64,000 bases of DNA from Cymodocea nodosa. Lineage: Eukaryota > Streptophyta > Magnoliopsida > Alismatales > Cymodoceaceae. Shown here piece after piece: positions 2,150-59,032 of the stretch. A program made the translations under genes and the position numbers. The DNA is taken from the NCBI GenBank assembly GCA_036874045.1, contig CM072344.1, positions 6,358,501-6,422,500 on the forward strand, given 5' to 3'. The notes under the pieces are model-generated. The model did no database searches. It worked only from the letters and a program-made list of their open reading frames with translations, and was not told the DNA's origin. The stretch's first letter is position 1, and each line of letters begins with the position of its first letter.

Positions 2150-2161
2150 TGGTATCAGAGC
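2150..2161 (+). other. Primer binding site, initiator Met tRNA type (copia-1)
   Basis: TGGTATCAGAGC lies 2 bp after the LTR end. This is the standard plant copia primer site and is unmutated here. The 184-bp leader that follows (2162-2345) shows no other feature. Confidence 0.93.
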
Positions 2162-11056: not shown

Positions 11057-11493
11057 ATGTATTGTCATTTATTTGTTTGCTTGTTTTTGAATACAAAATG
11101 TAATGTTTATATTTATTGTTTGATTATTTGGACAATACTTTTACTGTAAATGATTTCATTCTTATTAATGTTTATAGAAAGTTTAGCTGTAAATGTGTAT
11201 CTTGGATTTTTATACTATGTAATCATCTTTTTGATTAATGACAAAAAGGGGGAGATAATTATGAGTTTATATATTAAAAATGGGAGATGATTCTGTGGTT
11301 ATTGAAATTTTTCTAGAAGTTTTACTTCTAAGAGGTGAATTTTACACAAACAACAGAAATAAGCTTAAGTGAACTTAAGTCAACAAAATTGTTTGTTGAA
11401 TTAAAACTTAACACAATGGAGGTGCTTCGTTGAGTTAAATATATTTCATAATTGATTTAATATGATTTTTGTCATCATCAAAAAAGGGGAGAT
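11057..11493 (+). other. Copia-1 3' untranslated region with two polypurine tracts
   Basis: Two near-identical tracts occur: 11243-11255 (AAAAAGGGGGAGA) and 11480-11492 (AAAAAAGGGGAGA). The second adjoins the 3' LTR and would prime plus-strand synthesis. Copia-3 has the same pair (51289-51301 and 51608-51620). As I recall, multiple polypurine tracts are described for Sireviruses. Confidence 0.8.
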
Positions 11494-13058: not shown

Positions 13059-13063
13059 TAGTG

Positions 13064-16470: not shown

Positions 16471-16472
16471 AC

Positions 16473-27872: not shown

Positions 27873-28922
27873 AAACTCTTAACATAAAGTAAAAATAGTA
27901 GAAGATTAATTACATACCAATCTAAAGCATTGTTTTCAATAAATAGTTGTTGACGGATGAAGTTGAATTAGCTACTTCTCCTTCCAGTTCCCCAACGAAT
28001 TTTGTTTTCTTTCCTCAAGTCCTGGTAACTAGTAAATAACATTTTGTTCTATATTTATAATGCACGTCCATAAGGAAAATGAATCTTGTTGTAAGAACGT
28101 GTCTTATAACGTGCAGTATAGTTCCTATTTTTATGGATATGTGTTCCACTTCTAATTTCAAATTCCAATAATTGTTAAACCCACGAAGTTTCGTTCGTAG
28201 CTAAAAGAATAACTGTTCAGCTTAATCCACGAACTAACCTCGTTGAGTTACAGTTAACTCAACGGACGAGCCTTGGTTACTGTTTCTAACTCAACGAACT
28301 AATCTCGTTGAGTTACAGCTAACTCAATAGACTAGCTTCGTCGCTTATTTGCTAACTCCACAGACTAACTTTGTTGAGTTACAGATAACTCAACAAAGTG
28401 ACCTTATATTTTATTATGGACCTCATGGAGTTAAGGTTAACACAACAGACTTACTTCGTTGAGTTAATACTTAGCAAATTTTGTAAAACTTACTCCTTGT
28501 ATTAACTTCAATATATTTTCTCTTGCATTTTATCAACTTAAATAAAGTTAAATACATTTTATTAATGTAGTGTTCTAATTTAAACTCATTTAAATCTGAA
28601 CATTATATGCATATTTAACTTACAGTTCATTTCCTATTATGTAGAATTTACATTTTATTTTTCAATATGCAGATATATTCAAGCATTAACCAATCATCGT
28701 GCATTAACCATGTCATTAATAAAATTTGTAAAACTTTTAAACAGTCTTGCACATCTTTAAACCACTATATAATATTTGATTCAATATAGTTCTCAATTAT
28801 ATCATTCATTCATAAACATTAATTCAGAAACATTTGAAGTTCAAACATTCATATATATAAATAGTTTACATTTACATATAATCAGACTTTTTTTTTCAGT
28901 ATAAGTAGATGAACAATACATT
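27873..28922 (-). other. Spacer between env-position ORF and second gag part, unit 1
   Basis: No ORF. It holds the densest cluster of the inverted motif: CGTTGAGTTA (28241-28250) facing TTAACTCAACG (28254-28264), with further pairs to about 28465. On the minus strand ATTATAAATATAG near 28050 is TATA-like, and TTGGTATGTAATT near 27920 resembles a 5' splice site. Confidence 0.6.
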
Positions 28923-31127
28923 TTAATCTTTCTTCCTATGTTCATCTACTTCCTTCTAGAGCTTTTCTAATTATTGTTCTAACTGATTTATATGTTCTAT
29001 AACTCCTGTAATGCCTCTAGAAGATACAGTCATCTCAACAGCAACATAATTTTTGAATTCTTTCACTAAAATGGCTCTAGATCTTATCCTTTTAGACGTC
29101 CATTTCGTGAAATCAATACTATCCACCATCAGTAGTAGAATCAGATCTCTAAAAAATAATTTCTTCTTTACTGCTCTCAGTTTGGAGATAAATACTTTGT
29201 ACCAATTAACTTGAATTCTGTTCACAACTACATATGTGGTCCACTTGACAAATTGACTAAGTTCAATGTCGTGGCATTGTCTTTGATAAACAGTTTTTAC
29301 CAGTATGGTTGCAACCATGTGTGTCTTTCCATTTAAGTACTTAAATCTGTTCAGTAATGGCACACTAGGGTCGATGGCTATGCACTGTTTAATTTCCTAT
29401 TCAGCCCATTCCACTGTAGTTGTTTCTTCCAGAATTTCAATTTCTTCATTTCTCAGTTCGAAAATATTGTGGAGAAGCTCTAGTGTTATTAGTATATCAG
29501 CTTGCTCCACGTTGGAAATTAATCCTCTTTCTCCTCTCAAATTAGCATAAAAACAAGACACTAGATTTTCATATACTACATGCCCTCTTTGTTGAGAAAT
29601 AAATGCTAGTAGACCTTGAAACTCAAATAAGTCCTTAATTTCCTACATACCGTCCCAATTTACTGGTCTACTATATATAATATCATAATCCCTAATCTCT
29701 TGATATTTAGTCATTGCTTCCTAATTCCAAAAATATACTTCATTTAGAACTTGCTATAGGGAAGGGTTAGGAATTTGAATTTGTTCCTTTACTAGGGTTT
29801 GTTCTTGAATTTCTTCTTCAATTTGCTGAACTTGAGTTTGTTGGAAATGATCCAAAGATTCCTGCATTCTTGTTTCTACTTCTATCTGTGGTGGAGAGCC
29901 AGCAGAACTCTCCACTCTTTCTTCTTGAATTCTCTTAAAAATTTGCTGAAGAGTCTCTCCCTCTTCAATGGAATCTGTCGAGTCATTTCCTTTTTGTTCC
30001 ATATGTTCTTGTTCATCTTCTTCTCTTTCTTCTTCCTATTGACTACCAATCTACATTGTCACTGTTCTTTCTGATTCTATGGCAAATTGAGATGGAGTCA
30101 TGGGTAAATCAACTTCTGCCCCAACTTCAATTTCCTCTATTTGTACAAGCTGCAGACTAATTTCAGCCTATTTTTCTTCTCCGCTTTGCTCTTGTTGCTG
30201 CTCCTCCTTAGATTTAGATAATAAATCTACAAAAATGGGCTATTTATGCCCTACTATAGACATTATAGGTTCAAGTTTAATCTCTACGTGAGCTTTAGGC
30301 ACTATCTCTTTTCCTTTCCTTCTTCTAAATAATTGTGTCTGATCTTCTTCTTCTTCTTCTTCTGACACTAAGTCAACAAAACTAGACTCTGCAAGCTCTC
30401 GAGCCACAAGTACTAGCTCTTCCTGTTTTACTGTTTCTATAATTACTGGTCTCAAAGGACCAGCTTCAGTTTCTCTTACAATAGGTATGGCAGTGGCTTC
30501 TTGATGTTGTTCAACTTTAACTTTGTATTGGGCCTTTAACTTTTCTGCAACCCTCCTTTTGTGAAGTGCATCAAACACTAGATGTGCTTTAGCTACTACC
30601 AAATCTTTTGGTTCTCCTTGGTTTTTCCCAACTCAAATTGGTTCTTCAAACTCTCTTAACTCTTCTTCAGTAGAAGGCCCTATAACTACCACCCTTTCTA
30701 GTGGTTTAGGTGGTGGAATTGAAGGTCCTACTTGTTCTATTGCTGCAACTAGCATTTCTACTGTAGGTTCTTCCACTGCTTTCCTTTGTTGCTCCTTGAT
30801 TTCCCACCGGGCATGTCCAACAATATGTCTCACAAACCATAGTCTTGACATGTGCTAGATTAACTCTAGGGCAACCTCATTGTTAGGTCTAATTCTCCTT
30901 TCTCTATTTACAACAAATTTTGTTTCTACTTTGATTCTAGTTTCTACAATCTAAGGTATTCTAATATCTAAATCAACCAAAACTTTTCTCTAATAGAAGA
31001 TATCAGATTCTACATTTTCTAGTTCTTTTTCTCGTGTCGTGTTCCTGATCTTTTGACTTGTATGTCATTCTTCTGACTCTTTGAGAAACCTTGTAATGTC
31101 AACTGCCTCCCAAAACTCTAGCATCAT
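28923..31127 (-). pseudogene. Env-position ORF of gypsy unit 1
   Basis: Minus strand, from ATG 31127 (MMLEFWEAVD) to TAA 28923-28925. The N-terminal part contains EEWHT, RNTTREKE and VNRERRIRPNNEVALEL. The middle is rich in E, Q and P (about 30850-29760). The C-terminal domain has KDLFEFQGL (29610-29636), LELLHNIFELRNEE, RIQVNWYKVF and KKLFFRDL, then a leucine-zipper tail (INQLEQ, then KEVDE). The C-terminal domain aligns with the copia-1 and copia-3 extra ORFs. Several TAG/TAA codons interrupt it, mostly from CAG, CAA or TGG. No membrane segment or signal peptide was seen. It resembles the Transposase_32-type plant domain from memory; function unknown. Confidence 0.82.
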
Positions 31128-31868
31128 CTTGTCTTCGTGGTATGATGGAATGGAATGGAATCACTCTGATCTCTACTATTCTAAGCTCTAAATGATTCTA
31201 CGGATAATGCCCCCAAATCCTAAGTTCTAGTATAAATAAACCCTAAGTTTTTGGTAGGTAATCGGGACATTTTCCCACGCAAACTCTCACTCTCTCACTC
31301 ACTTCTCTCTGTGGAGCTACGATTTACTCCACGAACTAAATGTGTGGACTTAACTATAGTACTCTGTTGAGTTATAGTTAAATCAACGGAGTGAGTTCGT
31401 TAACTTATCCTAGACTCAATGGAATAAGTTTGTTAAGTATGTGTAACTCAACAGACCTCCCATAAAGTTATAACTAATAAAAATACTTATAATAACAATT
31501 TTTAATTCAATCAAGACTGAAGAATTTTTAGTCTAACCGATTTTTAATTTTTCAACATTTTAGAAGTTTCGGTCAAATCGTTATATTTCCTCGGTTGAAC
31601 CGAAATTAAATACTTTTTTCTTTCTTTTTCTTTTTTTTACTAGTTGAATCGATACCATGCTTCGGTAAAACCGATATCTTTACTTAATATAATATATAGA
31701 TTTTTTATGTTTTTATGTTTCAGTCAAACTAATGGATCCTTTCGATTGAATCATAACAATATTTTTTCTTTTAATATATGTTTTAGTGAAATCGATAATA
31801 TCTTTCGGTTGAACTGTGATTATATTTAAAATAAGTTTTTTTTTTCTAAACACAAATATATCTATCTC
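31128..31868 (-). other. Spacer between pol and env-position ORF, unit 1
   Basis: Non-coding. 31310-31460 has inverted GTTGAGTTA / TAACTCAAC motifs. 31540-31830 has a different degenerate repeat built on CGGTTGAACCG-like palindromes about every 60 bp, in a T-rich context. Unit 2 keeps both (59199-59345 and 59450-59700). Confidence 0.65.
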
Positions 31869-33481
31869 TTACTTAGTAAAGCTCAAGTAATCCTCTACTC
31901 TTACTTCTATAATTCCAAAGGAACTTTTTAGAATCTTTAGAATAGGTCTAAGTTTTTGTCCATTTACTTTAACTATATTCTGATTTTTAGGATTTTCAAT
32001 TTCAATTGCTCCATAAGAATAAATATTTCAAATTATGTAAGGCCTTGCCCATCTAGATCTTAATTTTCCTAGATGGTTATGAAGTCTAGTCATGTAAAGA
32101 TATACTTCTTGTCCTATTTCAAAAGTTTTTGGAATAATTTTCTTATCATGCCAAAACTTCATTTTCTCTTTTTCTTTTACAATTTTCGAATAAGCTTCAT
32201 TCCTAAATTCTTCTAATTCAATCAAATGCATTTTCCTATTTTCAACAGCTTGATTTAAATTAGTGTTTAGAGTTTTTAATGCCCAATAAACTTTATGTTC
32301 AATTTCAACTAGTAAATGACAACTTTTTCCATATACTAGTCTAAAAGGTGACATACCTAAGTTTGTCTTATAAGCAGTTCTATAAGCCCAAAGTGCCTCT
32401 ATCAATCTATTAGCTCAATCTGTTCTAGTAGGATTTACTATTTTTTCTAAGATTAACTTAATTTGTTTGTTTGCACTTTCTACTTGTCCACTTGTTTGCA
32501 GATGATATGATGTTGTAATTTTATGATTTACTCCATATTTTATCATTAAGGCTTCAAAACTTCTATTACAGAAATGAGTTCCTTTATCACTAATAATATT
32601 CCAAATCTAGCAATTATATTAGTTCTTATAAAATGTATTACCACTTTGTTGTCATTAGTTATTGTAGGAATAGCTTTTATCCATTTAGATACATAATCCA
32701 CCCCCAACAATATATAATTAAATTGATTAGACATAGGAAATAGACCCATAAAATCTATTCCCCACACATCAATGATTTCAACTTCAATAATAGGGTTTAG
32801 AGGCATCATATTCCTCTTTGATATTCTTCCTATTTGTTGACATCTTAAACAACTTAAGTAGTATTTATGAGCATCTTTCAATAGTGTTGGCCAATAAAAC
32901 CCACATTGCAGAATTTTGGTAGTAGTTTTTCCTAAACCAAAATGGCCTCCACATGCTTGATCATAACAGAAAGTCAATATGCTTTGATATTCAATTTCTG
33001 GAACACACCTCCTTAAAATGAGATTAGGACATTTCTTAAATAAGTATGGGTCTTCCCAATAGTAATATTTTACTCTTGAAAAGAATAATTTCATATCCTG
33101 TCTATTCCAATCCTTAGGTGTTAAACTAGTAACTAAGTAATTAACTATGTCTGCATACCAAGGCATTGTTTTTATAGTTATTAATTGTTCGTCAAGAAAA
33201 TTATCCTTAATTTCAATGTTTGATTTTTCTATTTATAATCTTGATAAATGATCTACTACTACATTCTCACAACCTTTTTTATCTTTAATTTCTAGATCAA
33301 ATTCTTATAATAATAATATCCATCGGATCAATCTAGGTTTAGTCTCTTTCTTTGCTATTAGGTGTTTTAAAGTTGAATGATCTATGTATACTATCACTTT
33401 AGCTCCAATCAGATATGATCTAAACTTTTCTAAGGCAAACACAACAGCTAATAGTTCTTTTTTAGTAGTTGTATAGTTAAC
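31869..33481 (-). pseudogene. pol: Gypsy unit 1 RNase H end and integrase
   Basis: Minus strand, closing at TAA 31869-31871. The H2C2 zinc domain reads HFGLGKTTTKILQCGFYWPT then CLRCQQIGR (about 33070-32840). Core motifs VWGIDFMG and GVDYVSKW follow. A 10-base loss near 32600 relative to unit 2 removes the second catalytic Asp region and shifts the frame. The C-terminal part ([34 protein letters not shown]) is readable from 32405 to 31869. Between 33481 and 33167 the pol frame runs on with stops only ([17 protein letters not shown]). Integrase after RNase H confirms Ty3/gypsy order. Confidence 0.88.
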
Positions 33482-38255: not shown

Positions 38256-40166
38256 CTTCCCCCATACTTATATTTTGCTAGTCTCTTAGCAAACTAAGAT
38301 CTAACTAGTTGGTCTTTCTAAAGTGCTAGAATTAATTCTTCATTTTTTTCTTCTTCAGAAAACATAATTTAGATTACTATATAGATATTCTATATTTTTC
38401 AGTAATTTATTTTAACATTGTTTTCTCCTCTTCAACCTGCAAATATATTTAGAACATATGTAAATTACATACAAAATATATTAGCATCACATAGGTGTTA
38501 ATTATATTATCATTTTTTTCTTCTTATCAGCATCTATCATCCTGAATTTTCCAATATGATTTCCAAAATAAATTTCAACAACATACGAATTAAAACACAA
38601 TCCAATTCAATAATTAAGACAAGTAGAATAAAGAATTGTATCTCAAATAAACAACTTCAAAAGTCTATTCTAGATTCATACTTCAGCAATCTTAGATAAT
38701 AGAAAATATACTTGATTCAAAAGATAGTTGTATTTCACAAAACACTTTTATCTTTTCAGAACAGTATATGCATATTTGTACTTTAAAATTTAATTTGAAA
38801 AGCTTCAATCATAAAAGAGCTTTCTAGTGTACCCATGTATTGAACTTTCAGTCAATAATCCCAGATCTGATCAGGATCTTAGGTTGCCAGATTTAAAGAG
38901 TTTTTTTTCGGGTCAACAACCCTTACATACCTATCTGCTCAAGTACAAAAGGCTCGTGATCAAACAAGTCAATAAACTCTCAAAGTTTTTCTCTTTTTTC
39001 CTCTTTTTTTCTTTTCAATACAGTATATATACGTATTTCATTAATACAGATGCAATAAAACACAAATCTTGTATAGTCCTACTTCTATTATATACTGAAA
39101 ATATGAATCCATATCAATAAGCTCATACTTTTTCTATAGTTTAATAAGATCTACACATAAATCATTCTACAAGTTTAATCAATCAAATTAAATATATCCT
39201 TGATCATATGCATCTCATTTAATCCAAAAATCAACATTTCAGCACTTATAGGATTTATGATAATTTACTGAGTTTGAGTTAAGCATTTTGTTTTCTTTTT
39301 AAAATCGTGAAACTGTTAAACTCATAAAATTCAGTAAAAAACATAAGATACTATATCTAGATTTGTATGAATAGTAAAATTCTATATCATTTTATATAAC
39401 ATTCAAGCAGTTAGAGTTCTTAAAAATTTTACAGTTTCAATTATTGAATAGTTACAGCAAATTCATAAAAATTTTCAATTTCCATAGAACTTTGCAATAC
39501 CATTCTAATTCCTTTAATTAACAAAATTACATGGCTGTTACTTTAATTACCTCCCCTCCACACCTACATTTTGCATTGTCCTCAATGTAAAAGATTTTAT
39601 AGTAAATACAGTGATTGTGGCAGACATGAATATTATTTCATTGACTTAGCATCTAACTCAACGAACTTAGTTCATTGAATTAATGAATAACTCCACAAAC
39701 TGAGTTTAAATCTAAATTCAGAATAAGTAATTAATTACATACCTTGTTCTTTTGAATCTCCTTCCATATCTTCCGATTTTTGATTTTGAAAAACTTTTCA
39801 TTCATAAATAAAAGCAGAATATATAACAAAATAATAAAACATAAATTGTTAAATCAGTGTCTTGTGTGGAACCCAGACTCCTATGCCTTTGGTGGCTCAT
39901 AAGCAAGCCAGTTGGTTTCCCAGAATAGATACCAACAAACTAGATTGCTATTTTGTTGTTTTGTTTTTTTTCTTTCTTTCTTATAAAATAAAACTAAAAC
40001 TAAAATTTTTTCTCTTCTTTTTTTTTTTTTTTAAATAAATGTAGAATACACATAACATTAAAAGCACAGAATCATAATTTAAGAACATTATTGAAAAGTA
40101 GTTACAAATGGAATAAATGTGTCAGTCCATGCAAACTTTTTAAGCATAATTCTTCTTGCTATTAAT
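38256..40166 (-). other. Unit 2 3' spacer up to the copia-3 insertion
   Basis: Minus orientation counterpart of 23329-25240. It includes the polypurine tract (38256-38268), the copia-shared spacer (38269 to about 39400), the splice-site-like AACAAGGTATGTAATT near 39745 and a poly-T run (40018-40032). The plus-strand ORF at 38827-39120 is not conserved in unit 1 and is rejected. TTAAT (40162-40166) is the left target duplicate of copia-3. Confidence 0.82.
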
Positions 40167-41709
40167 TATTAAGTATTTTGTTTTGATGATGTGTGCTAAA
40201 TGAAAATAATCATATTTGCTCAATTACTATTGCTTGTGAAAAGAAATTAAAATCATCAATTAATACAGAAAAAGCTTACTGATATAAATACTTGTCTGTT
40301 TTGGATCTAAAATTATACTAAGTTAATAACTAGTCATTTCATTGCATTAATTTCTCATTTAACTAAACGTCAAGTTAACGTGTGTGTTTATTGAAAAGTA
40401 TGATATGTTTTAAAGTTATATTTTATGTATCATGAATAGTGCACATTTAGACAATTCGTTAAGTTAAAGTTTTGTTTGTATAGAGATCACGTGAGAACTT
40501 GTTAAGTTAGAGGCTTAAAGGTTAAAATAGATCACATAAGAACTCGTTGAGTTAGTGAGTAAAAGAAGAGACGAACTCGTTAAGTTAGTGTTGTACACGT
40601 GGTGAAATTATAAATTACAAATGTTCTATTGTATCACGTGAGGTGCACATGTTTAACTTGTTAAGTTAACATAACTAAACATGTTGAGTTGCTATATTGA
40701 ACACTAAGGCAATGCGTTAGGTTAGCGTTATAAACTTAAGTTGTTATTTTTGAACGTGGTAAAATTCTTATTATAAAAATATTTGTTTATTACTGGTTCA
40801 TTGAGTTATCATAACACAATGGAGATAGTTCGTTGAGTTATCCGTAACACCACGGAGTTAGTTCGTTGAGTTAGCTACAGTACTTGTCATGTAAGCTGGC
40901 ACATGAGGAACTCATTAAGTTAGAAACGTTAAGTTATATATATATTGTGTTACTCGTTTAGTTAACATTAAAGTAACAACTTCTTATTATACTTGATGAA
41001 AAATATTGGATGAGAAAGTTTATTTTGTAGGAAATTTTTCAAAGATCCAGGATTGATGATTAAAGAAAATTCAAAATGTAAACGTGGGTTAGAACGTGTG
41101 TATTTCGATGAAGGAAAAAGAAAAGACGTGAAGAAGTGGAAAACTGGTAGTGATTAAACGTGGAGGATATGCATGAAATAAAGATACAGTATAAAAGGCA
41201 TAGAATTCTTGTTGATCAGTTATCCCTGCACACCAAAAGAAAAATCTTTTCAGTGATCAAAAACACCTCTTCGGGGAAAAGCTATCAGGTGGAAGAAAAT
41301 TTAGTGAAGTAGAAAAAGGTGAGATATATGTCACTGAAGATTTGAAGTATCAGGTGAAAGAAAATTCAGTGAAGCAGAAAAAGGGAAGATATATGTCACT
41401 AAAGAATTGCTGAAGAAGAAAGAGAAGAAGAAGAAAGATCTCAAACAGGGAGAAATGTTTTAAATTCCGCAAATTAGTTTTCTCTATTTGTAGTTATGAA
41501 ATTGTATAGATGATACATGATATCGAGATATAATTGCATCTACAATTTCTTAGGAGAATTGAATTGTATATTGTAATTGAAACCTTAAATAAAAATGATT
41601 TTATGAAAACAGTGTCTCGACTTGTTTTTGAGTTTTAAAGTTTCAATTATATTCGAAAATATTGAAAAACATAATTCACCCCCATCTTGTGTAGTCATAC
41701 TATCCTACA
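40167..41709 (+). repeat. Copia-3 5' LTR
   Basis: Starts TATTAAGT (mutated TGTTGAGT), ends CCTACA, 1,543 bp. The gypsy-like block is at 40511-40735. TATA box at 41190-41198. Confidence 0.9.
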
Positions 41710-41711
41710 AG

Positions 41712-41723
41712 TGGTATTAGAGC
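41712..41723 (+). other. Primer binding site of copia-3
   Basis: TGGTATTAGAGC, one C-to-T change from the initiator Met site, 2 bp after the LTR. Leader 41724-41909 shows nothing further. Confidence 0.9.
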
Positions 41724-41909
41724 ATTGTTAATAATCTTTGATATAAAATCGATACCAACTTATTTAATATCATTGCTTATTTTTCCTTCCTTGTTTCTAA
41801 ACAGAAATTAATATCTGAGCATACGTTTAACTTTCTTGATTTAAGGCTCAAGTTGTTTTAAAGTTTTTAGACTGTTTAAAATCAAATAGCTTAAAAAAGC
41901 TAAGGTAAG

Positions 41910-44151
41910 ATGGCTACTGGAAATGGTAATTTTTCTTTATATGAAAGTCAAAATCTTAATCGTCCTCCTTTATTTGTTGGAATACATTTTGAATAGTGGA
42001 AATATAGGATGACTATTTTTCTTCAAAGTATAGATCATAAGTTGTGGTTCATGATTTCTAAACCATATACTCCACTATCTACCCCTTATAATACTTGGAC
42101 AATTACTAAAAAAGAAAATGAAACTCTGAATGCTAAGGGCTTAAATATTTTATTTTGTGCATTGAGTTATGAACAGTTCAGTAAAGTGTCGGCATATAAA
42201 TCTACCCATGAGGTGTGGCATGCATTAGAAGTTTCACATGAAGGTACTTCTCAAGTTAAAGAGACTAAGATAAACATGTTAATTCATAAGTATGAACTCT
42301 TTAAGATGCATGAAGACGAAAGTATTTCTGAGATGTTTTCTAGATTTCTTGATATCATAAACTCTTTAAAATGCTTAGGAAAGAATTTTGAACAAAAGGA
42401 TTTGGTGAGGAAATTTCTCATATCTCTAAGTTCTAAATGGTCTCAGAAAATAACATCAATTGAGGAATCACGAGATTTAAATGTTTATACCATGAATGAA
42501 CTTATAGGAAACTTAACAGCGTATGAAGTTCAATTGAATGAATCACTAAGTCACAACAAACTAAAAATGAAGAAAGAAATAACCTTGAAATTAATTCAGA
42601 TTCTGATATATCTACTAATTCTGACAAAGATTTGATCTTGCAAATTAGGAAATTTAAGAAAGCATGGAAAGCTAGGAAACAACAAATGAATAAAGAAGAC
42701 AAACCCTCAACATCAAAATCACTGAATGACAAGATTTCTTCATCCAAAAAGTATGTATGTTACAACTATAAGAAACCTGGACATCTTTCTCTAGATTGTC
42801 TTATAAGAAAAAATGAAAAGCATAGTAGGACAAATTAGAAGAAGACGCTCAGAAAACTCAGAAAAAGTTTTACAAGAAAAATGCTTTGAAGGTCACTTAA
42901 GATGACACGCCTGAAGAGTTTGAATCTAAGGAATCATCATCAAAATCTTCACATTCAAAAGAAGAACAAGAGTTAGAAGGCGTTGCTCATGAGTGCTTCA
43001 TGGCAGTGTCTGAGGTAATATCTGATCTTGAAAGTTATTTAGATTTTAACTTTGATGAATTATTATGTGCTTATCATGCATTATTACAAAAACTTAAAGT
43101 TTGTAAACTGGAAAATAAGAATATTAGAAACTCTTTATCCATTGTGGAAGAAGAAAATTGTTTCCTGTTTACTACTTTAGAAAAGTTTAAATGTGATAAT
43201 GAAAATCATGCTAGAGATTTGCATAAATTCAGATTTAATGAATGTGTCTTGCATGAACAAATACAGAATACAAATGCTAAAAAATTAAAGATAGAATTTG
43301 AAAATGAAATATTGAGAAAAAATATAAATGATCTCAAATTAGAGATTTCTAAATTCAAACTAAGAGAGCTAGATTTAAATTCTAACATTGAGAAATGAAA
43401 TTTAAGTCAAACTAAGTTAGACAAACTAACTAGTACCCCTACAATGTCATATAAATTTTGCTTAGGATTTGATTATCTTGAATCTCAAATGAATAAAGGA
43501 TTTATTAGTTGCAGTTCAAGTAAATTTAAGACTAAAATTCCTTTTATCATGAAACAAGGTAATAAATATGTAGTAGGTACTTCAAGGGATGAATCATGTA
43601 GTAATAATATAAATCAATGTGATTTGTCTAAATGTACTTCCAACATGACTATTAATGTTTCTAAAAATCTTGTTTTTTGTTTTGGAAATTCAATTTCTAA
43701 TGTTTCTAAAATTTCAGACAATTGTAGTAAACTGAAAATTCAAAAACCCGAGCATGTAATTCAAAACACTAGTGTTAGACCAATTACTCATTCTGCATGT
43801 GATAAATCTGAAAATTCTTGTGCAAAAAAAGATTTTGTATGTACTGAAAATTCAAATACATGTACAAAATCTTGGTATGAACTTACTAAAATGTATGAGC
43901 ATGACCAAAATAAATTAACATCTGATAAAAATCTGTTTGGTCTTAGTTATACTACATCTGAAAAAAAAAGGAATGATTATAAGAGCAATAATGCTAGAAG
44001 TAAGTATGATATTAATGATAAGTCAACAGTACTTACAACTAATAAGAATGTAAATGAAAATGTTAAACTGTGTTTAAATAAAAAGAAGAAATATGCGTTT
44101 AATGAACTTGGTCCTCAACAACATTGGGTACCAAGAAAAAGTTTTTCTTAA
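41910..44151 (+). pseudogene. gag: Copia-3 gag (Sirevirus-like), broken
   Basis: Homologous to copia-1 gag throughout. ATG at 41910 (MATGNGNFSLYE). TAG at 41994 and 1-base losses near 42584 and 42848 break the frame. The knuckle is damaged: the second Cys is replaced (CYNYKKPGHLSLDC near 42757-42800). A coiled coil of about 130 residues is open at 43000-43398. Further stops are TAG 42836, TAA near 42898 and TGA 43396. It ends at TAA 44149-44151, the same site as in copia-1. Confidence 0.88.
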
Positions 44152-47100
44152 TTTATTTTGCAGGAGGAAACAACATCAAAATGGATCTTAAACAGTAGAG
44201 CATCAAGTCACATGACCGAATAGAAAAGTCTACTACAAAATTTTACAAATACCATGAAAGGAAGTGTAACATTTGGAAACAAAAACAAGGATAAAATCAT
44301 AGGTATGGGTAATGTTCAAATAACTCCGACTTGTGTTATTTTGAATGTACTATATGTAGAAAACCTAGGATTTAATTTGCTGAGTGTTATAAAACTAACT
44401 AAGAATGGATATTATGTAGTGTTTAAAAATAATGTATGCAAAATTATTGATGAAAATACAGATGAAATTAAGTTTATTACAAAAAAAAAAGGTTTTGTAT
44501 GTATTTTATCTTTACCTTCTGGTGTAGTTGATTTAAATTCATGTTTGCAAGCTGAAACTAGTGATGCATATCTATGGCATATAAGGATTGGGCATATAAA
44601 TATGAAACTGTTACATAAACTATCTAGAAAAAATATTTAGTGAGAGGTTTACCAAAGATTAAATACTCAAAGGACTTTATGTGTGATGCATGCGAGTTAA
44701 GTAAACTTCACAAAAACTCTTTTAAATCCAAAACTGATATTTCAAGCAAGAGAGTCTTAGAACTTATACATATGGATCTATTTGAACCAACAAGAATCAT
44801 GAGTCTTGGTGGTAAACGGTATGTATTTGTTTTAGTAGATGACTTCTCTAGATACAATTGGGTGCATTTTCTAGCATCTAAGACAAAAGTTTTTGAAAAT
44901 TTTAAAATGTTTTGCAATTTTGTTCAAAATGAACAAAATGTCTCTGTTCAAAAACTTAGTAGTGATCACGGTATAGAATTTGATAATGATCAAATGGATA
45001 ATTATTGTAATGAGCATGGCATTGATCACATATTTTCTTTTCCAAGAGCACCATGTCAAAATGGTGTTGTTGAGAGAAAGAATAGATCACTTCAAGAAAT
45101 GGCCAGAACTATATTGAATGAACATAAGTTACCTCAAAATCTTTGGGCTGAAGTAGTGAATACAACTTGTTATGTTATTAACAGAAGTCACTTAAGACCT
45201 CGTATTAATAAAACTCCTTTTGAAATTATGTTTAATACGGTTCCAAAAATTTCCTATATGAAACCATTTGGCTGCAAGTGTTTTATTTTTAATACTAAGG
45301 ATAAAAGGGATAAATTTCAAGCCAAAGCGGATGAAGGAATTTTTGTAGGTTACTCTACTATAAGTAAAGCCTATAGAGTATATAACAATACTTCTAGAAT
45401 TATTGAAGAAACCCTCCATGTAAGCTTCAATGAAAATTCTTTTAGAGAATCTCAATCTAAAGCTGATAATGATGATATGATCAATTTCCCAAAAGAGTTA
45501 GAGATCAATATAGAGATTGAAGATTTATCTGAGAAAATCAAAAATATCAACTTAAATGATCAAACTCATGATGAAAGTGATGGACCTTCAGATGTTGATG
45601 AGAATATTGAGGAAAATCAGAGAAATTGGCGTTATTCTTCATCACATCCCATTACTCAAGTCATTAGTAATATTAATGAGGGAGTTAAAATTAGAGCTTC
45701 AGTAAATTTAAATAGTATGTGTATGTTTGTTTCTATGGTGGAACGAAGGAATATACAAGAAGCATTATCTAATGAAAATTGGATAGTGGCAATGTAAGAA
45801 AAACTAAATCTGTTTATTAGAAATGATGTTTGGGAATTAGTCTCTCCACTAGAAAATCAGTCCATAATAGGTACAAAGTAGATCTTTAGGAACAAAACTA
45901 ACGAAACTGGTCAAGTTATAAGGAACAAAGCTAGATTAGTTGCACAAGGGTATACACAGGAAAAATGACTAGATTTTGATGAAATATTTGCTCCTGTGGC
46001 TAGGTTAGAAAGTATTAGAATATTATTGGCCTATGCTTGTTATATGGATTTTAAATTATATCAAATGGATGTAAAGAGTGCATTTCTAAATGGTTTAATT
46101 ATTGAAGAAGTCTATGTAAAACAACCACCTGGATTTGAAGATATTAAAAATCCTGACTTTGTGTATAAATTGCAGAAAGCCTTATATGGGTTGAAGCAAG
46201 TACCTAGATCATGGTATGAAAGATTATCTACTTTTTAATAGAAAAAGGTTATATCTTGGGAAAAGTGGATCATACTCTATTTATCAAGAGAGATGGTAAA
46301 GATCAGATTGTTGTTCAAATATATGTGGATGATTAATCTTTGGAGCAACTTTTGATAAACTGATAAAAATATTTTTTGAAGAGATGACTAATCAGTTTGA
46401 AATGAGTATGATAGGAGAACTTTCATATTTTCTAAGACTTCAAATTAAGCAAATGAATGAAGGTATATTTTTAAATCAGGAAAAATATGTAAATGAAATA
46501 CTTAAGAAATTTAATTTTAATAATACAAGGATTCAAGGAACTCCTATGAGTACTTTAAAGTTAGATATTGATGACATAGGGAAATCAATAGATCAAAGAA
46601 AATACAAAAGTATGATTGGTTCTTTACTTTATTTGACTGCTAGTAGACCTGATATTATGTTTGTTGTGTGTGTTAGTGCTAGATTTCAATCTAATCTTAA
46701 AGAATCACACTCAATTGCAATTAAAAGAATATTTAGATATATACAATGAACTAAAAATTTCGGACTGTATTATTCTAAGGATAGTTCAATATATCTTATA
46801 GGATATACTAATGATGATTATGTAGAATCTAAATTTGATAGAAAGAGTACCAGTGGCACATGTCAATTATTGGGAAATAATTTGGTGTCATGGTTTAGTA
46901 AAAAGCAAAACTGTGTAGCACTTTCTACTACAGAAGCTGAATATGTTGCTATTGCACTATGTTGCACTCAGATTCTGTGGATAAGGCAAACTTTAGAAGA
47001 TTTTGGATTATCTTATGATACAACTGAGATTTATTGTGACAGTAATTCAGCAATAAATCTTTCCAAAAATCCTGTATTACATTCTAGAGCAAAGCATATA

Positions 47101-47268
47101 GAGGTTAGACATCATTTTCTAAAAGATAACGTAATTAAAGAAAAAATTAAATTAGAATTTGTGTCTAGTAAAAATCAATTAGCTAATATATTTACAAAAC
47201 CTCTAGACGAAAATACATTCTGCAACATAAGATTAAATTTGGGTATTTGTAGGCTATGTGATGTGTAA
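44152..47268 (+). pseudogene. pol: Copia-3 pol, broken; protease active site lost
   Basis: The protease motif reads NSRAS (about 44188-44202) where copia-1 has DSGAS, so the catalytic Asp and the Gly are gone. The integrase zinc region (HIRIGHIN, CDACELSK) and core (SSDHGIEF, QNGVVERKNRSLQEM) are mostly readable at 44577-45110. RT begins near 45750; YVDD is at 46322-46333 but a 2-base loss follows at once. RNase H is open at 46870-47268, closing with TAA. Other breaks: a 2-base gain near 44633, TAA 45795, TAG near 45880, TGA near 45966, a 1-base loss near 46236 and TGA 46747. Confidence 0.9.
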
Positions 47269-48848
47269 AATGCTTAAACTCCACAAAAAGATAAACATTA
47301 TTGATGATGTTGTTCACCTCATAGATATTATATACTTATCATAAATATCTAAGTAATATCTAAACTACTGCTTAAGATACTATGTATTTATTGTAAAATC
47401 ATAGTAGTATCTTATTGATTTTAAGTAGTTTATCAATTTTAATGGTTTTTACGATTTTAAATGAAAGTGTAAATGAAAAACATTAAATACTTCTAAAATT
47501 CTGAAAGTTTGATTAAGTGTTTTCTTTGAATCGAGGAAAGTGCATATGATCATGCACAAATTTGACTAAATTAATTAAACTTGTAGAATAATTTATATGT
47601 AACTCATCTTAAATTGTTAATCAAAAGTATAAGCTTATTGAAACTGATTCATATTTTCAGTAAAATCATAGAAGTAGAAATTGTATGAGATTTGTGTTTT
47701 ACTGCATTTGTATTAATGGAATACATATATATTGTGCTTAAAATGAAAAGTGCTTACAAAGTGAAAATCTTTGAGAGTTTATTGATCAGTTTGATCACGA
47801 GCCTTTTGTACTTGAGCAAATAAGTATGTAAGGATTGTTGTCCTCAAAAAGGATTCTTTAAATCTGGCAACCTAAGGTCCTGATCAGATCTGGGATTGTT
47901 GATTGAAAGCTCATTACATAGGTACATTAGAAAGCTCTTGTATGATTCAAGCTTTTCAAACTAAGTTTTAAAGAAAATTATCAATAGTTACTGTTTTGAA
48001 AAGAAAAAATTGTTTCATTAATTACAGATATCTTTGAATCGAATATAGTTTCTACCAATATGACTACTGATTTATTGAATCAACATTAGTACTTTTGAAA
48101 ATGTTTATTTGAGATACATTCTTTTATTCTCCTTGAATTAATCATATTGAGTTCAAAGTTGTGTTTTGATTCATATACAGTAGGAATTAATTCTAGAAAT
48201 CATTTTTGTTGAATTCAGAATAACAGAAGTTTTTGAAAAGAAAATTTAAAAGTCTAGTTATACTTAACATCTATTGTTATACAAGTATATTTTGTATGTT
48301 ATTGAATATATAAGAAGTATATTTGTAGGGGGGATTAACAATGTCCAAAACAGATTAATATAATTCAGAATACAAATCTTGGTTAATCTGAATTAAAGTC
48401 CTCTTAAGATCTTGATGAAACAATTTAAAAAGACAAACAAACTATTTTAGATTCATGAGACGAGAATGTTAGAATAGTTTACAATGTTCTCAAGATAATG
48501 TTAAGTATAGCATGTGTGTTGTCTTCAGAAGATTTCAATTGAAAGCATTCGAATTTTTGTTAAGTGTACTAACTGAACGTTATGTTATATAAGGTAACGT
48601 GTAAAACTACCTCTAGACAGTGTTTTACTCGTTAGGTTAGTTAACTCAATGAGTTATACTTGAATATTTCAGGTATCTTGATTGAATAAACTTTATTCAA
48701 TATTCATTTAAAATCCAAACCTGACTTCTATACACGTTGAGTTATTTGCCTAAAACCCTATTTAAACACTTATTACATGGGCACTTAGGTTATTCGTAAA
48801 CTTTGTCAAGAAAGTCTTTCCCACTTGTTGCTGTTACAACCTGCGACG
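47269..48848 (+). other. Copia-3 post-pol spacer
   Basis: Non-coding, uninterrupted version of the spacer in copia-1. About 47345-48430 aligns with the gypsy 3' spacers; about 48430-48848 has no gypsy match seen. The last 250 bp before the extra ORF contain GTTGAGTTA-type motifs near 48640 and 48737. Confidence 0.8.
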
Positions 48849-51111
48849 ATGGTCTCCAAGTTTTACAAAGGTTGTGGCAGAGGAAAAGGCAAAAGTAGAG
48901 GAGATGCAAAAGGAAAAGAAATAGATACTAATGAAGTTCCACGCACTTGATTCAAGAAAATACTTCGAGTGGACAAAAGGTTAGTAGAAATTTATAGAGA
49001 TTACTTCTTTCCTCAAGGTATACTAGATGAAGTTAGACAAGAGCTTCAAAATACTAATGAAAATATTACATATATGGGTATTCGAAGTAAATATGATAGA
49101 GAATACAGAATGAAATGTGCTGAAATTGACTTTCTCGAGCAGTATGCAAGATATTTGGAAAAAGGTGTAGGTACATCAACTAGAATTCCTAAAATACCAA
49201 TAAACGGTACAAGACTACATGCATTTGAGGAAGAGCATGAATCAGCTATCCCTACCCCTTTATATTCAAAACAAGTAGAATCACATATTGTTGTAGATAA
49301 AAGAAAAGTTGACAGTCTTCGAAAGGCTATAGTAATAGAAAGTGCTTTTGAAGAATTAAAGCAAAAAACTTTTTTGGAGCAATTTGAAAAGAAAATTGCA
49401 ATACTTAAAGAGGAGAAACAGAAATGTTATAGAAGAAGAAAAGTTAGAAAAATTATGTCTATAGAAACAAAGTCTATTGGAAAAGGACAATCGAATGAAC
49501 ATTTATTTCCAAAGGACAATGTATGTCTAGACTTTGTACCTTACAGTGCATCTGATAAACTCATCAGTTCCGAGCATACTGAAATTGATGAAGATAATGA
49601 GACTTTTTTTTCTCTTGCTAGAAAACTTGAGAAGAAATCCAAGTCAAATATGAGCTCAAGTTTTTCTATTAGTACAAGTCCTGATGATGTAGAAATTGAC
49701 AAATCAAAGCATCAAGCAACTAACATTGAACAACTTATTGCAGATATAATTGACAATGTTGAGGCAGTAACTAGTTCATAGGCTGAATTGTCTGGAGTAG
49801 CAGATATTGAAAACGTTAAGACTCCAGAAGAGCTAAACATCAACCAACCTTCTTTAGAATCTATAGAAGTAGAGTGTGAGAATTCACATGTACTTGAAAT
49901 TGAACTATCTATTGTAGAAATTGAAAAATTACAGATAGATACACAGGCTGATGAATTTGTGCAAAATTTGAACTCGGTATTTTCTATAGAAACTGAACAA
50001 ATGAATGTGGCGGATATTGAAAATGTTTCTTACACTGTTGAAGTTGAAGAATCAAGTATACATACGCAGCTTCAAGAAAATATTTTGATAGAGGAACAAC
50101 ATGACATTCATTTTGAAGAAGAAGTTCTTGAAGATGAATTAAACTCTAAATCACGGCTTCAGGTATCACCTTCTTTATGTACAGTATTACAAATTCAAGG
50201 AAATTCAATTTATTTTAGATCTGAGGAAGCATTGCAGAAATACAATAATCTGATTACATATCAAATCCTGCATGCTAAACCAATAAAATTTAGAAATTTG
50301 ATTGATATGAAAGATTTATTTGAGTATCAAGGCCTCATTCAATTCTTGCCAGTTGAAACAAAATGGAAGCAATATAAAGAGCTTATTGCATCTTTTTACA
50401 GCAATCTAGTCAAGAATGAAAATACTCTAAAAACTCAAATAAATAAATAGGAGTTCATATTGTCTCCTGAGTTAATTTTTGAAATTTTGGGATTAAAGAA
50501 TGAAGGTGTTGTTGTTACAAACAGATTTGACATGATTAGACAACTGGAATGGGACATTCAGTCTTTATCAAATATTCTAGATGTATATTCTGAAATGAGA
50601 TTAATGGAAAATCAGAATGCAGAGGCAATGTTTATTACAAATATATTGCATGCCAATTTATTTCAGAGAGTTGGACACAATATAGAAGTCAGCAGAAGTT
50701 ATTTATATGCAACTTATGGTCTGCTGAATAGAATTCAAATCAATTGGTTTGATGTTTTTACTTCTCAACTACAGTATGAGTTCAAAGTTATTTTTTGGTG
50801 ATGTTGTATGTAGAATCCTTGCAAGCCAATTGAATTTATCTGATTGGCCCTCCGAAACTAAAGGCATGAGAGCTTTTAGTATAAAAGATTTGCAAAAATT
50901 CCAAGCTTTGCATCAACCTCATCAACAACAACCAACAGATTCTATAGAACAAATTCGACCACAACACCCAAGTTATTCAGTTCAAGTAGAACAGCAAACC
51001 TAGATACCTCCTGACCTAGATGATGTACTTAACGACATCAAAAATGATATTAGGCATCTAGGAGATAAAATCTGTAATGCTATAAGTGATATACTTCGGA
51101 GGAATAGATAA
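48849..51111 (+). pseudogene. Copia-3 env-position ORF, near full length
   Basis: About 754 codons from ATG 48849 (MVSKFYKGCGRGKGK, a basic start) to TAA 51109-51111. Residues 45-180 are charged and partly helical (DEVRQELQNTNENI, LEQFEKKIAILKEEK). Residues 310-440 are acidic. Residues about 460-655 form the domain shared with gypsy: KDLFEYQGL (codon 488, base 50310), YKELIASFYSNL, LIFEILGLKNEG, RIQINWFDVF (codon 628), then KLFFGDVV. A Gln/Pro-rich tail follows. Breaks: TGA near 48951, TAG 49779, TAG 50448, a 2-base loss near 50775, TAG 51001. No signal peptide or membrane segment is visible. It resembles Transposase_32 by layout, from memory. Confidence 0.85.
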
Positions 51112-51621
51112 CTACTTGTTTGCTTGTATCTGAATACAAAATGTAATGTTTGTATTCATTATTTGATTCATTGAACAATACATTTTTTTCTATAAATGGT
51201 TACCATTCTTATTATTATTTATAGAAAGCATTGTTGTAAATATATCTCTTACCATATATTCTATGTAATTATCTTTTTGATTAATGACAAAAAGGGGGAG
51301 AAATGTTATATAAAAAAAAAATGATTATGATTTTAAATTGCATATAGTATAAAGGGAGATGATATTTATGGTTATTGTAATCTGACAGATGATAATGTAA
51401 TCTGAAAGGTAGAGAAATGATACTTATATAATTATTAACATTTGAAAGTTTTATTTTTGAGAGGTGAAATTTACACAAACAATAGAAATAAGCTTAAGTG
51501 AACTTAAGTCAACAAACTTGTTTGTTGAATTAAAAATTAACCCAGCAAAGGTGCTTTGTTGAGTTAAATATATTTCATAATTGATTTAATATGGTTGTGT
51601 CATCATCAAAAAGGGGGAGAT
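51112..51621 (+). other. Copia-3 3' untranslated region with two polypurine tracts
   Basis: Tracts AAAAAGGGGGAGA at 51289-51301 and 51608-51620, each in the context ATCA or GACA. The downstream one adjoins the LTR. No ORF. Confidence 0.85.
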
Positions 51622-53168
51622 TGTTGAGTATTTTGTTTTGATGATGTCTACTGAATAAAAATAATCATATTTGCTCAATTACTATTGCTTGTGAAAAGAA
51701 ATTAAAATCATCAATTAATATAGAAAAAGCTTATTGATATAAATACTTGTCTATATTAGATCTGAAATTATACTAAGTTAATAACTACTCATTTCGTTGC
51801 ATTAATTTCACATTTAACTAAACGTTAAGTTAACGTGTGTGTTTATCGAAAAGCATGATATGTTTTAAAGTTATATTTTCTGTATCATGAACAGTGCACA
51901 TTTAGACAACTCGCTAAGTTAGAGTTTTGTTTGTATAGAGATCACGTGAGAACTCGTTAAGTTAGAGGCTTAAATGTTAAAATAGGTCACGTGAGAACTC
52001 GTTGAGTTAGTGAGCAAAAGAAGAGACAAACTCGTTAAGTTAGTGTTGTACACGTGGTGAAATTATAAATTACGAATGTTATATTGTATCACGTGAGGTG
52101 CACATATTTAACTCGTTAAGTTAACATAACTAAATGTGTTGAGTTGCTATATTGAACACTAAGGCAATGCATTAGGTTAGCGTTATAAACTTAAGTTGTT
52201 ATTTTTTAACATGGTAAAATTCTTATTATAAAAACCTTAGTTTATTACTGGTTCGTTGAGTTATCGTAACACAATGGAGATAGTTCGTTGAGTTATCCGT
52301 AACACCACAGAGTTAGTTCGTTGAGTTAGCTACAATACTTGTTACGTGAGTTAGCATATGAGGAACTCGTTAAGTTAGAAACGTTAAGTTATATATATAC
52401 TTGTGTTACTCGTTTAGTTAACATTAAAGTAATGACTTCTTATTATACTTGATGAAAAATTTTGGACAAGAAAGTTTATTTTGTAGGAAATTTTTTAGAG
52501 ATCCAAGATTGATGATTAATGAAAATTTGAAATGTAAATGTGGGTCAGAACGTGTGTATTTCGATGAAGGAAAAAGAAAAGATGTGAAGAAGTGGAAAAC
52601 TGGTAGTGATTTAACGTGGAGGATATGCATGAAATAAAGATACAGTATAAAAGGCATAGAATTCTCGTTGATCAGTTATCCCTACACACCAAAAGAAAAA
52701 TCTTTTCAGGGATCAGAAACACCTCTTCAGGGAAAAGTTATCAGGTGGAAGAAAATTCAGTGAAGTATAAAAAGGTGAAATATATGTCACTGAAGATTTG
52801 AAGTATCAGGTGAAAGAAAATTCAGTGAAGCAAAAAAAGGGAAGATATATGTCACTGAAGAATTGCTGAAGAAGAAAGAGAAGAAGAAGAAGAAAGATCT
52901 CAAACAGGGAGAAATGTTTTAAATTCCATAAATTAGTTTTCTCTATTTGTAGTTATGAAATTGTATAGATGATACATGGTATCGAGATATAATTGCATCT
53001 ACAATTTCTTAGGAGAATTGAATTGTATATTGTAATTGAAACCTTGAATAAAAATAATTTTTTGAAAATAGTGTCTCAACTTGTTTTTGAGTTTTAAAGT
53101 TTCAATTATATTCAAAAATATTGAAAAACACAATTCACCCCCCTCTTGTGTAGCCATACGATCCTACA
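51622..53168 (+). repeat. Copia-3 3' LTR
   Basis: 1,547 bp, TGTTGAGT to CCTACA. The gypsy-like block is at about 51966-52190 and the TATA box at 52646-52654. It differs from the 5' LTR by several percent by eye. Confidence 0.92.
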
Positions 53169-56778: not shown

Positions 56779-59032
56779 TTAATCTTTCTTCCTAAGTTCA
56801 TCTACTTCCTTCTGGAGTTTTTCTAATTGTTGCTCTAATTGATTTATCCTTTCTACAACTCCTGTAATTCCTCTAGAAGGATCAGCAATCTCTACAGCAG
56901 CATAATTTCTATACTCTTTCACTAAAATGGTTCTTGATCTTATCCTTTTGGATGCCTATTTTGTGAAATCAATACTGTCCACCATCAATAGTGGAATCAA
57001 ATCTCCATAAAAAAGTTTCTTCTTTACTACTCTCAATTTGGAGATAAAAACTGCAGACCAATTAATCTGAATTCTTTTCACAACTGCATATGTGGCCCAT
57101 TTGACAAATTGACTCAGTTCTATATCATAGCCTTGTCGTTGGTAGACATTTTTAATCAAAATGTTAGCTATCATGTGTGTTTTACCATTTAAGTGCTTTA
57201 GTCTATTTAATAATGGCACACTAGGATTGATAGCTAAACAATCCTTTATTATCTGTTGTGTCCACTCGACTGCAATTGTGCTTTCCAGAATTTCTAGTCC
57301 TTCATTCTTCAGTCCTAAAATGTTGTGGAGAAGCTTTGGTGTTATCTCTATACATCAACTTGCTCTATGTTGGAAATTAATCCACTTTCTCCTTCTCTTA
57401 AATTTGCATAGAAGTAGGGCACTAGATTCTCATATACTACATGCCCTCTCTCTTTAGAAATAAACTACAGCAGACCTTGGAACTCAAATAAATCCTTAAT
57501 TTCTTGCATCCCATCCCAATTTACTAGTCTACTATAAATGATATCATAACCCTTAATCTCTCGATATTTATTATATGCTTACTGACTCCAAAAGTGTACT
57601 TCATTTAAAATTGTTACTTCAGTCGGGTCAGGAATGTGAATTTGTTGCTCTAGAGGGGTTTGTTCTTGAACTTCCTCTTCCATGTGCTGAACTTGCATTG
57701 ACTAAAAATGCTCTAGAGATTCCCGCATTTTTGCTTGTACTTCTGTCTATGGTGGTGAGCTGGCATAACTCTCCACTCTATCTTGAATTCTTTCTAAAAT
57801 TTGTTGAAGAGTTTCTTGCTCTTCAATGGAATCTGTCGAGTTATTTCTTTCCATATGTACTTGTTCAGCTTCTTGTTCAGTTTCTTCTTTTTCTTCTTCC
57901 TCTTGACTACCAATCTGCATTGTCACTATTCTTTCTGATTCTGTGGTAGATTGGGATGGAGTTACAAGCAAATCAGCTTCTGCCCTAATTTTTGTTTGTT
58001 TTGTTTGTACAAGCTGTAGATTAGTTTCAGCCTGTTTTTCTTTTTCTCTTTGCTCTTGCTGTTGCTGCTCCTACTCCTCCTCAGAATCAGAGAGTAGGTT
58101 TACAAAAATTACCTCTACAGGCCCTACTAATATTTGTATCTCAATTTTAATCTCTTCTTGATGTTTAGGCACTATCTCTTTTCCTTTCCTTTCTCTGATT
58201 AATTGTGTCTAGTCTTCCTCTTCTTCTTTTGAGATTAAATCTACAAAAATGGGCTCTACAGGCCTTTGAGTTGTAGGTACTAACTCTTCCTGTTTAACTT
58301 TTTCTATAATTGCTGGTCTCGAAGGACTAGCTTCAGCTCTTCTTGTAGTAGGTCTGGTAGTGGCTTCTTGATGTTGTTCAACTTTAATTTTATATTAGGC
58401 CTTCAACTTTTCTACAGCCCTCTTTTTGCACCGTGCATCAAAGACCAGATGTGCTATAGCTACTGCCAACTCTTCTGGTTCTCCTTGGTCTTTTCCAATT
58501 TGAACCAGTTCTTGAAATTCTCTTAATTCTTCCTCAGTAGAAGGCCCCAAAATTTCTGCTCTTTCTAACAACCTTGGTGGTGGAACTGAAGGTCTGGGTT
58601 GCTGTTCCTCAAGGACAAGTCTTTCAACAATCGATTCCTCTTATTCTTCAATTGCTCATTCATCAGTTCCTTTCCTTTGTTGCTCCCAGATTGCCCTCTA
58701 AGCCCATCACCTATGCGTGTTTTGAACTAGAGTCGGGACTTACGTTGGATCAATTCTAGGGCAACTTCGTTATTTGGTCTGATTTTTCTCTCTCTGTTTA
58801 CAGCAACTTCCATTGCTACTTTGATTCTCATTTCCATTATCTGAGGTATTTGTATACCTAAACCTACTAACACTTTCCTCTAGTAGAAAAGGTCAAATTC
58901 TACCTTTTGTAGCCCTTTTTCCCTCGTCGTATTTCTGATCTTCTACCTTGTGTGCCATTCTTCCGAATCTTTAAGAAATTCTGACGTGTCAACTACGTTC
59001 TCCCAAAATTCTAGTGTCATCTTTGTCATCAT
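56779..59032 (-). pseudogene. Env-position ORF of gypsy unit 2
   Basis: Minus strand from ATG 59032 (MMTKMTLEFWE) to TAA 56779-56781. Same plan as unit 1: N-terminal part with EEWHT and VNRERKIRPNNEVALEL, E/Q-rich middle, shared C-terminal domain (MIANILIKNVYQRQG, ATYAVVKRIQINW near 57060-57100, KKLFYGDLIP), and a zipper tail (RINQLEQQLEKLQKEVDEL). Stops near 58943, 58880 and 58735 and frame changes in the middle break it. RIQINW is identical to the copia-3 string. Plus-strand ORFs over this region are shadows. Confidence 0.82.

Follow-up and report, generated by a model that had tools for sequence, protein, structure and literature searches.

A shared core domain in decayed post-pol reading frames of copia and gypsy retrotransposons from Cymodocea nodosa

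Introduction

The long terminal repeat (LTR) retrotransposons considered here lie in a stretch of 64,000 nucleotides of Cymodocea nodosa DNA (Cymodoceaceae, Alismatales; assembly GCA_036874045.1, contig CM072344.1, positions 6,358,501 to 6,422,500 of the forward strand), which is referred to below as the window. Judged from sequence comparison, the decayed open reading frames (ORFs) that follow pol in two of its copia elements, copia-1 and copia-3, and in two units of its gypsy array have a homologous core. This core was probably acquired by at least one of the superfamilies long after their split, either directly or via a third source, and would have been a replaceable 3' module since. The exchange of modules among retroelements is already known, and what is apparently new here is that it would extend across superfamilies.

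A survey of extra ORFs in plant elements sorted those of copia apart from those of gypsy and took them as many independent captures. If a homologous core is truly present in both, the extra ORFs become a gene family that can be tracked, and it becomes testable whether such ORFs perform the same service for both kinds of element.

Homology of the core domain

The extra ORF of copia-3 extends over 48849..51111 on the + strand and is interrupted by stops after 49778, 50447 and 51000 and by a frame change near 50760-50800. Its core, delimited by local alignment, BLASTP, hhalign and motifs to approximately 50229..50860 (+), contains KDLFEYQGL (50310-50336), YKELIASFYSNL (50373-50408), LSPELIFEILGL (50460-50495), TNILHANLFQRVG (50637-50675), RIQINWFDVF (50730-50759) and KLFFGD (50785-50802). 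The core of copia-1 is broken and lies at about 10188..10870 (+); this element lacks the stretch 48309-49816, which in copia-3 covers the end of the linker plus the extra ORF's N-terminal half, and has in its place a partial copy of its own LTR (8710..9776, +; 85% identical to 40711-41710 and 52166-53172). Both gypsy copies are on the - strand. The ORF of unit 1 follows the integrase and was placed at 28923..31127 by the initial annotation, with longer open pieces in 30854-28974; its core, at about 29030..29720, carries KDLFEFQGL (29610-29636), YENLVSCFYANL (29538-29573), ATILVKTVYQRQC (29274-29312), RIQVNWYKVF (29190-29219) and KLFFRD (29145-29162). For unit 2 the corresponding limits are 56779..59032, with longer open pieces in 58640-56959 and a core at about 56960..57578 that has ANILIKNVYQRQG (57130-57168), RIQINWSAVF (57046-57075) and KLFYGD (57001-57018).

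The initial annotation had described these regions as four ORFs with a common series of motifs in the same order. The coding stretches are indeed present, but not one of the four is an intact ORF, with in-frame stops in all copies and frame changes as well in copia-1, copia-3 and gypsy unit 2. The motifs were found in the stated order in all four decayed copies, with small departures such as RDLFEFQCL in copia-1 or, in gypsy unit 1, ATIL and QRQC. RIQINW, noted as identical in copia-3 and gypsy unit 2, occurs in copia-1 also.

Comparisons were made on separate open pieces of the broken copies (labelled C1 and C3 for copia-1 and copia-3, G1 and G2 for gypsy units 1 and 2), with 500 shuffles per pair. 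Nine of the 72 copia x gypsy local alignments (8 x 9 pieces) were above z = 3. The seven strongest reached z values of 5.8-32.6, with none of 500 shuffles scoring as high in any of them, and in every one the core parts that were paired correspond to each other. The remaining two, C3d-G1a (z 3.9, 1/500 shuffles) and C3d-G2d (z 3.2, 7/500 shuffles), are near background, though corresponding parts were paired in the latter. Pieces of the C-terminal part of the core scored 119-186 against shuffled means of about 29, the KDLFE pieces scored 53 and 85 (0/500), and the last piece of copia-3 scored 67 against gypsy unit 1 and 38 (7/500) against unit 2. Identity between the copia and gypsy cores was 34-43% over aligned positions in all five comparisons, and 24-38% by BLASTP for pieces from KDLFE onward (except for one match of 16 residues at 62%). 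In the multiple alignment, identity to copia-1 was 28% and 35%. The domain begins about 27 residues ahead of KDLFE, where the copia pieces are 35% identical to 57468-57578 over 37 residues. At the DNA level, identity in aligned domain codons is 52-55%.

Comparison of hidden Markov model profiles, which had been proposed as a check, bears out the relationship: hhalign aligned the core over 146 columns with a probability of 99.3%, an E value of 2.9e-20 and 26% identity, and the KDLFE part gave E values of 2.1e-8 and 7.6e-8. The N-terminal halves had been described as unrelated in appearance, and no relationship was found between them in six of six hhalign comparisons (E 0.34-0.93).

The order of the motifs resembles that of Transposase_32 proteins, and a match to this family (PF20167) had been predicted. 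None was obtained at E values up to 10 for any of ten pieces and five A1 alignment rows, these being pieces only and never the whole domain scored as one sequence; Pfam scans of the same separate pieces gave no match to ATHILA ORF-1 (PF03078) either. The other Pfam matches of extra-ORF pieces were four chance-level hits under the cut-offs (best DUF5713, E 0.046), and the best hit of a PDB sequence search (E 0.071) was taken as chance. Scans of viral contigs with C1d, G1e, A1, the gypsy integrase and the copia reverse transcriptase (RT) gave no relative, nor did a scan of genome contigs with the A1 alignment. The protein searches produced one relative only, P0001, a sequence of 115 residues that is 88% identical to copia-1 over half of the query.

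Inheritance versus exchange

Across superfamilies, the extra-ORF domain scored 85-186 against shuffled means of 28-35 in five of five comparisons. Twelve control comparisons between copia and gypsy, made with integrase, RT and gag pieces and in one case with copia-2, gave nine scores equal or close to the shuffled mean, one of 41 against 31, and two clear but weak matches, namely of the copia-1 and copia-3 integrases with 60146-60541 (69 and 70 against 31-32). With hhalign, one of two integrase controls matched (E 4.4e-6) and all four RT and gag controls gave E values of 0.18-0.82. Within copia (copia-1 versus copia-3), the extra ORF is 68-80% identical (four pieces) and gag, integrase, RT and RNase H are 80-89% identical (seven pieces); within gypsy, the values are 61-78% for the extra ORF (four pieces) and 80-90% for integrase and gag (five pieces). 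Within the lineages the ORF thus evolves no more slowly than integrase, yet it is far more alike across the superfamilies, which argues for a younger common ancestor there. The identity of the core across superfamilies, 34-41%, resembles that between two copia lineages of the window, represented by copia-1 and copia-2, which is 35% for RT and 41% for integrase (one copia-3 RT piece reached 51%).

On these grounds we consider it likely that the core came into copia, gypsy or both late. The core domain, of about 200 residues and part of an accessory gene that has since decayed, would then have a single origin, and would have been acquired long after the split of the superfamilies, from element to element or via a common third source, after which the accessory gene behind pol would have served as a replaceable 3' module. 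The route would most likely have been a template switch while co-expressed elements were being reverse transcribed, or else recombination of copies nested within one another.

Several points weigh against this interpretation. When the core piece is taken alone, copia-1 and copia-3 have an identity of 80.0%, which matches the lowest integrase value (80.0-82.8%), and the argument from rates stands on two copies per lineage and on short pieces. The within-lineage figures for the gypsy ORF are inflated by a module swap (see below). The pol control pieces overlap only partly, and a lack of overlap accounts for some of the nine scores at background. Both matching integrase pairs are also the pairs with the best overlap; the fairest contrast is therefore that of integrase at 69-70 with the extra ORF at 181-186. 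Furthermore, all copies of the extra ORF are pseudogenes.

The main rival explanation, which we regard as rather unlikely, is that the two superfamilies captured the domain separately from a third source, such as a host gene family or another transposon. The N-terminal halves, between which no relationship was found, would fit separate captures, and Neumann et al. infer independent acquisition of extra ORFs from multiple sources (PMC6317226). On the other hand, the ORF has the same orientation and the same place after pol in both superfamilies and the whole core is colinear. No homologue in a host or another element was found in the searched collections, which weighs little because these collections gave one relative in all.

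It is unlikely that the ORF simply descends from a time before copia and gypsy split, and it is very improbable that the ORF is cargo of the common ancestor that has merely been better conserved than pol. The identical post-pol position in both superfamilies would agree with such cargo, and the comparison of rates is based on few copies, but inside each lineage the ORF is no slower to change than integrase and is still far more alike between the superfamilies. Moreover, integrase lies ahead of RT in the copia elements and behind it in the gypsy units, from which we infer that pol does not end at one and the same ancestral junction in both.

A recent nested insertion or an assembly artefact that brought gypsy DNA into copia deserves practically no weight. 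Copia-3 does sit within the gypsy array, but the ORF is enclosed by the LTRs of two copia copies at different sites, both a target-site duplication and an empty site are found for copia-3, and the low DNA identity (52-55%) together with the presence of the ORF in both copia copies refutes this explanation.

The modular exchange between copia and gypsy that was suggested in the initial annotation thus finds support in the homology, in the improbability of vertical descent and in the movement of the module within gypsy, where identity steps occur on both sides of the ORF; these lines of evidence do not distinguish direct transfer between copia and gypsy from capture by each of them from a third source. 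A wider reading, which we put forward tentatively and with somewhat less than even confidence, is that the post-pol ORF may be a cassette from a pool that is shared host-wide and not owned by a single element lineage, that it crossed between Ty1/copia and Ty3/gypsy after the radiation of plant retroelements, and that it is still swapped among gypsy copies. The supposedly independent extra ORFs would then include exchanges of one gene.

Probable replacement of the gypsy 3' module

When the gypsy units are aligned over 7245 positions, a divergent module is found that spans from the end of the integrase to just past the extra ORF (28712..31945 in unit 1, -). It is 78.7% identical to unit 2, compared with 92.7% in the flank towards the integrase and 90.4% past the module. 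A fit with two breakpoints was better than one with a single rate (twice the log-likelihood difference 214), and with the coarser step of the control the value was 211, and 200 block permutations reached 72.7 at most. Relaxed constraint alone explains the drop poorly because the spacer between integrase and ORF is included (81.3% identical), while the non-coding DNA beyond the module is 87.9% identical. Synonymous divergence between the units is 0.98, 1.60, 0.24 and 0.26 for the ORF pieces and 0.06-0.23 for three integrase and two gag pieces, which agrees with module exchange in part, two of the four ORF pieces being high. We read the drop in identity as a swap of the ORF module between gypsy subfamilies.

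Likely product

The N-terminal pieces have an isoelectric point below 7 in eight of nine cases (4.1-6.3; the ninth 7.2), while the values for core pieces are 9.1-10.0 (four), 7.0 (one) and 4.4-4.7 (three, one of which is mostly N-terminal part). The C-terminus of the gypsy copies looks coiled-coil-like by eye, with a heptad-like stretch in unit 2, and a basic cluster, RRRK, is present once in copia-3 and once in gypsy unit 1, the other scanned pieces having none. Since the N-terminal part is charged and mostly acidic, the core is conserved and the gypsy C-terminus is coiled-coil-like, an accessory protein is suggested rather than a membrane fusion protein. The ratio of nonsynonymous to synonymous substitution (dN/dS) is 0.37 for the core pieces of copia-1 and copia-3 (C1d-C3c), 0.11 for those of gypsy and 0.16-0.94 for other ORF pieces; individual pieces of RT and integrase go as high as 1.01 and 1.16, which shows how noisy these estimates are. 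That the core was once under selection is likely but short of proof.

An ORF of a sunflower Athila element with similarity to Transposase_32 is predicted by DeepLoc to encode a nuclear protein (PMC11728184). The product of the extra ORF might be a nuclear or particle-associated accessory protein, a possibility to which we give perhaps one chance in three; it counts against the nuclear role that the case is drawn from composition, the RRRK clusters and the sunflower DeepLoc prediction. A retroviral-type envelope protein seems most improbable. The ORF does occupy the env position, and such ORFs have been named env-like (PMC7264820, PMC2829016), but no hydrophobic segment of membrane strength was found in 19 pieces, which miss some residues (highest 19-residue Kyte-Doolittle mean 1.25), and the shared core also speaks against an envelope function.

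Element layout and lineage

The window consists of AT-rich repeat DNA (GC content 27-39% in 4-kb steps). Copia-1 occupies 581..13070 (+), with LTRs at 581-2158 and 11496-13070 that are 92.5% identical, and has Pfam matches to Retrotran_gag_2, Pol_BBD, gag_pre-integrs, rve (4611-5525) and RVT_2 (6561-7709). Its homologue at the DNA level, copia-3, lies at 40165..53168 (+), with LTRs at 40165-41709 and 51620-53168 (93.8% identical), a target-site duplication TTAAT and broken coding regions; LTR length is about 1.55 kb in both. The shorter copia-2 (16099-21388, +; RVT_2) has no space for an extra ORF, as its pol ends about 70 bp upstream of its own 3' LTR. A direct repeat of 1.39 kb (13059-14444 and 14712-16099, +; 90% identical) lies between copia-1 and copia-2 and is inverted relative to the copies of a gypsy repeat, R, at 21523-22896 and 36338-37714.

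DNA comparison and open pieces define the gypsy array as a series of repeated, tandem-like units over 21523-63657 (-). Unit 1 has an RVT_1 piece in 34064-35101 and an Integrase_H2C2 piece in 32549-33232, and unit 2 has an rve piece in 60146-60541. Copia-3 sits in this array between the F-box stretch of unit 2 and repeat R. TTAAT is single at the empty site of unit 1 that corresponds to its insertion point, so that the insertion of copia-3 postdates the formation of the array. The N-terminal part of gag lies downstream of the extra ORF and its C-terminal part upstream of pol, with the F-box and R stretches in between; these gag parts were named from motifs taken as typical of gag, and a Pfam scan of one gypsy gag piece gave no match. 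The F-box protein piece of unit 2 (53757-54284, -; PF00646, E 3.3e-11), between a gag part and R, has a DNA counterpart in unit 1 at 26379-25289 (-), the Pfam scan covering the unit 2 copy. Unit 2 lacks a counterpart of 32652-36334 (-), from the C-terminal part of gag through RT, and R meets integrase there at about 60519-60608. Because a gag part stands on each side of the F-box and R stretch, R may be an insert in gag. The end of R, however, carries sequence of a kind found at Athila LTR ends, and R may instead be the gypsy LTR.

Part of R is also found in copia. The linker of copia-3 contains at 47405..48372 (+) a stretch that is 76% identical to R at 24426-23465, 39353-38436 and 63671-62782 (-), with a counterpart in copia-1 at 7939-8704. 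The shared DNA measures about 0.9 kb, is 74-76% identical and has no long ORFs. This sharing is younger than that of the domain, and it shows that DNA has become common to both kinds of element more than once. A joint arrival of the linker/R DNA and the ORF is not supported, since the former is 74-76% identical and the domain DNA 52-55%. About 150 bp of the copia LTR (987-1139, 40573-40726 and 52029-52181, +) is 72-78% identical, in inverted orientation, to R at 37861-37718 and 62194-62052.

With respect to lineage, copia-1 has the Sirevirus traits of a copia gag, RVT_2 and an integrase ahead of RT. A polypurine tract of the Sirevirus type, AGGGGGAG, lies at 51612..51619 (+) and is followed by AT and then by the TG of the 3' LTR of copia-3; further exact copies occur upstream of the 3' LTR at 51293 in copia-3 and at 11247 in copia-1, one in each, and the terminal tract of copia-1 has one base changed. 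After the 5' LTR of copia-1 stands the primer binding site pattern TGGTATCAGAGC, with one mismatch in copia-3. The octamer, its multiple copies and the attachment site are described as Sirevirus features, with on average four polypurine tracts per linker (Bousios et al., PMC2829016). By their polypurine tracts, copia-1 and copia-3 are Sirevirus-like.

The gypsy units have RVT_1 followed by integrase, as in the Athila lineage, and are taken as Athila-like from layout. A primer site of the aspartate-tRNA type has no match in the window with up to three mismatches, the unit being rearranged. Other tRNAs than that for aspartate are also used as Athila primers, and Athila is set apart from Ogre and Retand in that its RNase H is not followed by another one ahead of integrase (PMC6317226). 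In unit 1, about 250 bp separates the open piece that ends at 33485 from the one that starts at 33232.

Comparison with known systems

Within the open-licence literature, as far as its texts were available, no report of a post-pol ORF common to plant copia and gypsy elements was found, subscription papers and Pfam membership lists lying outside this scope; the available parts of PMC2774666, PMC3599292 and PMC11963269 make no mention of ORF sharing between copia and gypsy. In common bean, env-like ORFs are common to SIRE-like families, and 15 gypsy families have antisense ORFs that are unlike described envelope proteins (PMC4093653).

On the gypsy side, the nearest system is the env-like ORF of Athila, including sunflower Athila 14, which is a sense ORF in a gypsy element as found here. 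Residues 133-312 of the 487 in the sunflower ORF are partly similar to PF20167 (PMC11728184), whereas the pieces scanned here match neither PF20167 nor PF03078, and the core is borne by copia as well. On the copia side, the eORF-3'F of Sirevirus (SIRE) elements is likewise a sense ORF in a linker with more than one AGGGGGAG tract. Such an ORF is carried by 74% of SIRE elements, and Neumann et al. arranged the extra ORFs into 45 groups for copia and 314 for gypsy, those of SIRE falling into 19 groups, and concluded that they were acquired independently from multiple sources; unlike here, no ORF group common with gypsy is mentioned in the available text (PMC6317226).

Exchange as such has precedents. 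In Arabidopsis Athila, a stretch of env was exchanged between families, much like the mosaic seen here between gypsy units 1 and 2, and at least four of 13 lineages are said to be recombinant, foreign env having been acquired by recombination; that exchange took place within Athila and not across superfamilies (Marco and Marin 2008, PMC2410132). In bdelloid rotifers, types of the accessory ORF3 are carried by unlike classes of retroelements, as may be the case here, in another host, with other ORFs (GDSL, DEDDy and others) and in LTR and Penelope-like elements (Rodriguez et al. 2017, PMC5408684). If the reading of a late entry of the core holds, the sharing of accessory genes between unlike retroelements, as in rotifers, would extend to the LTR elements of plants.
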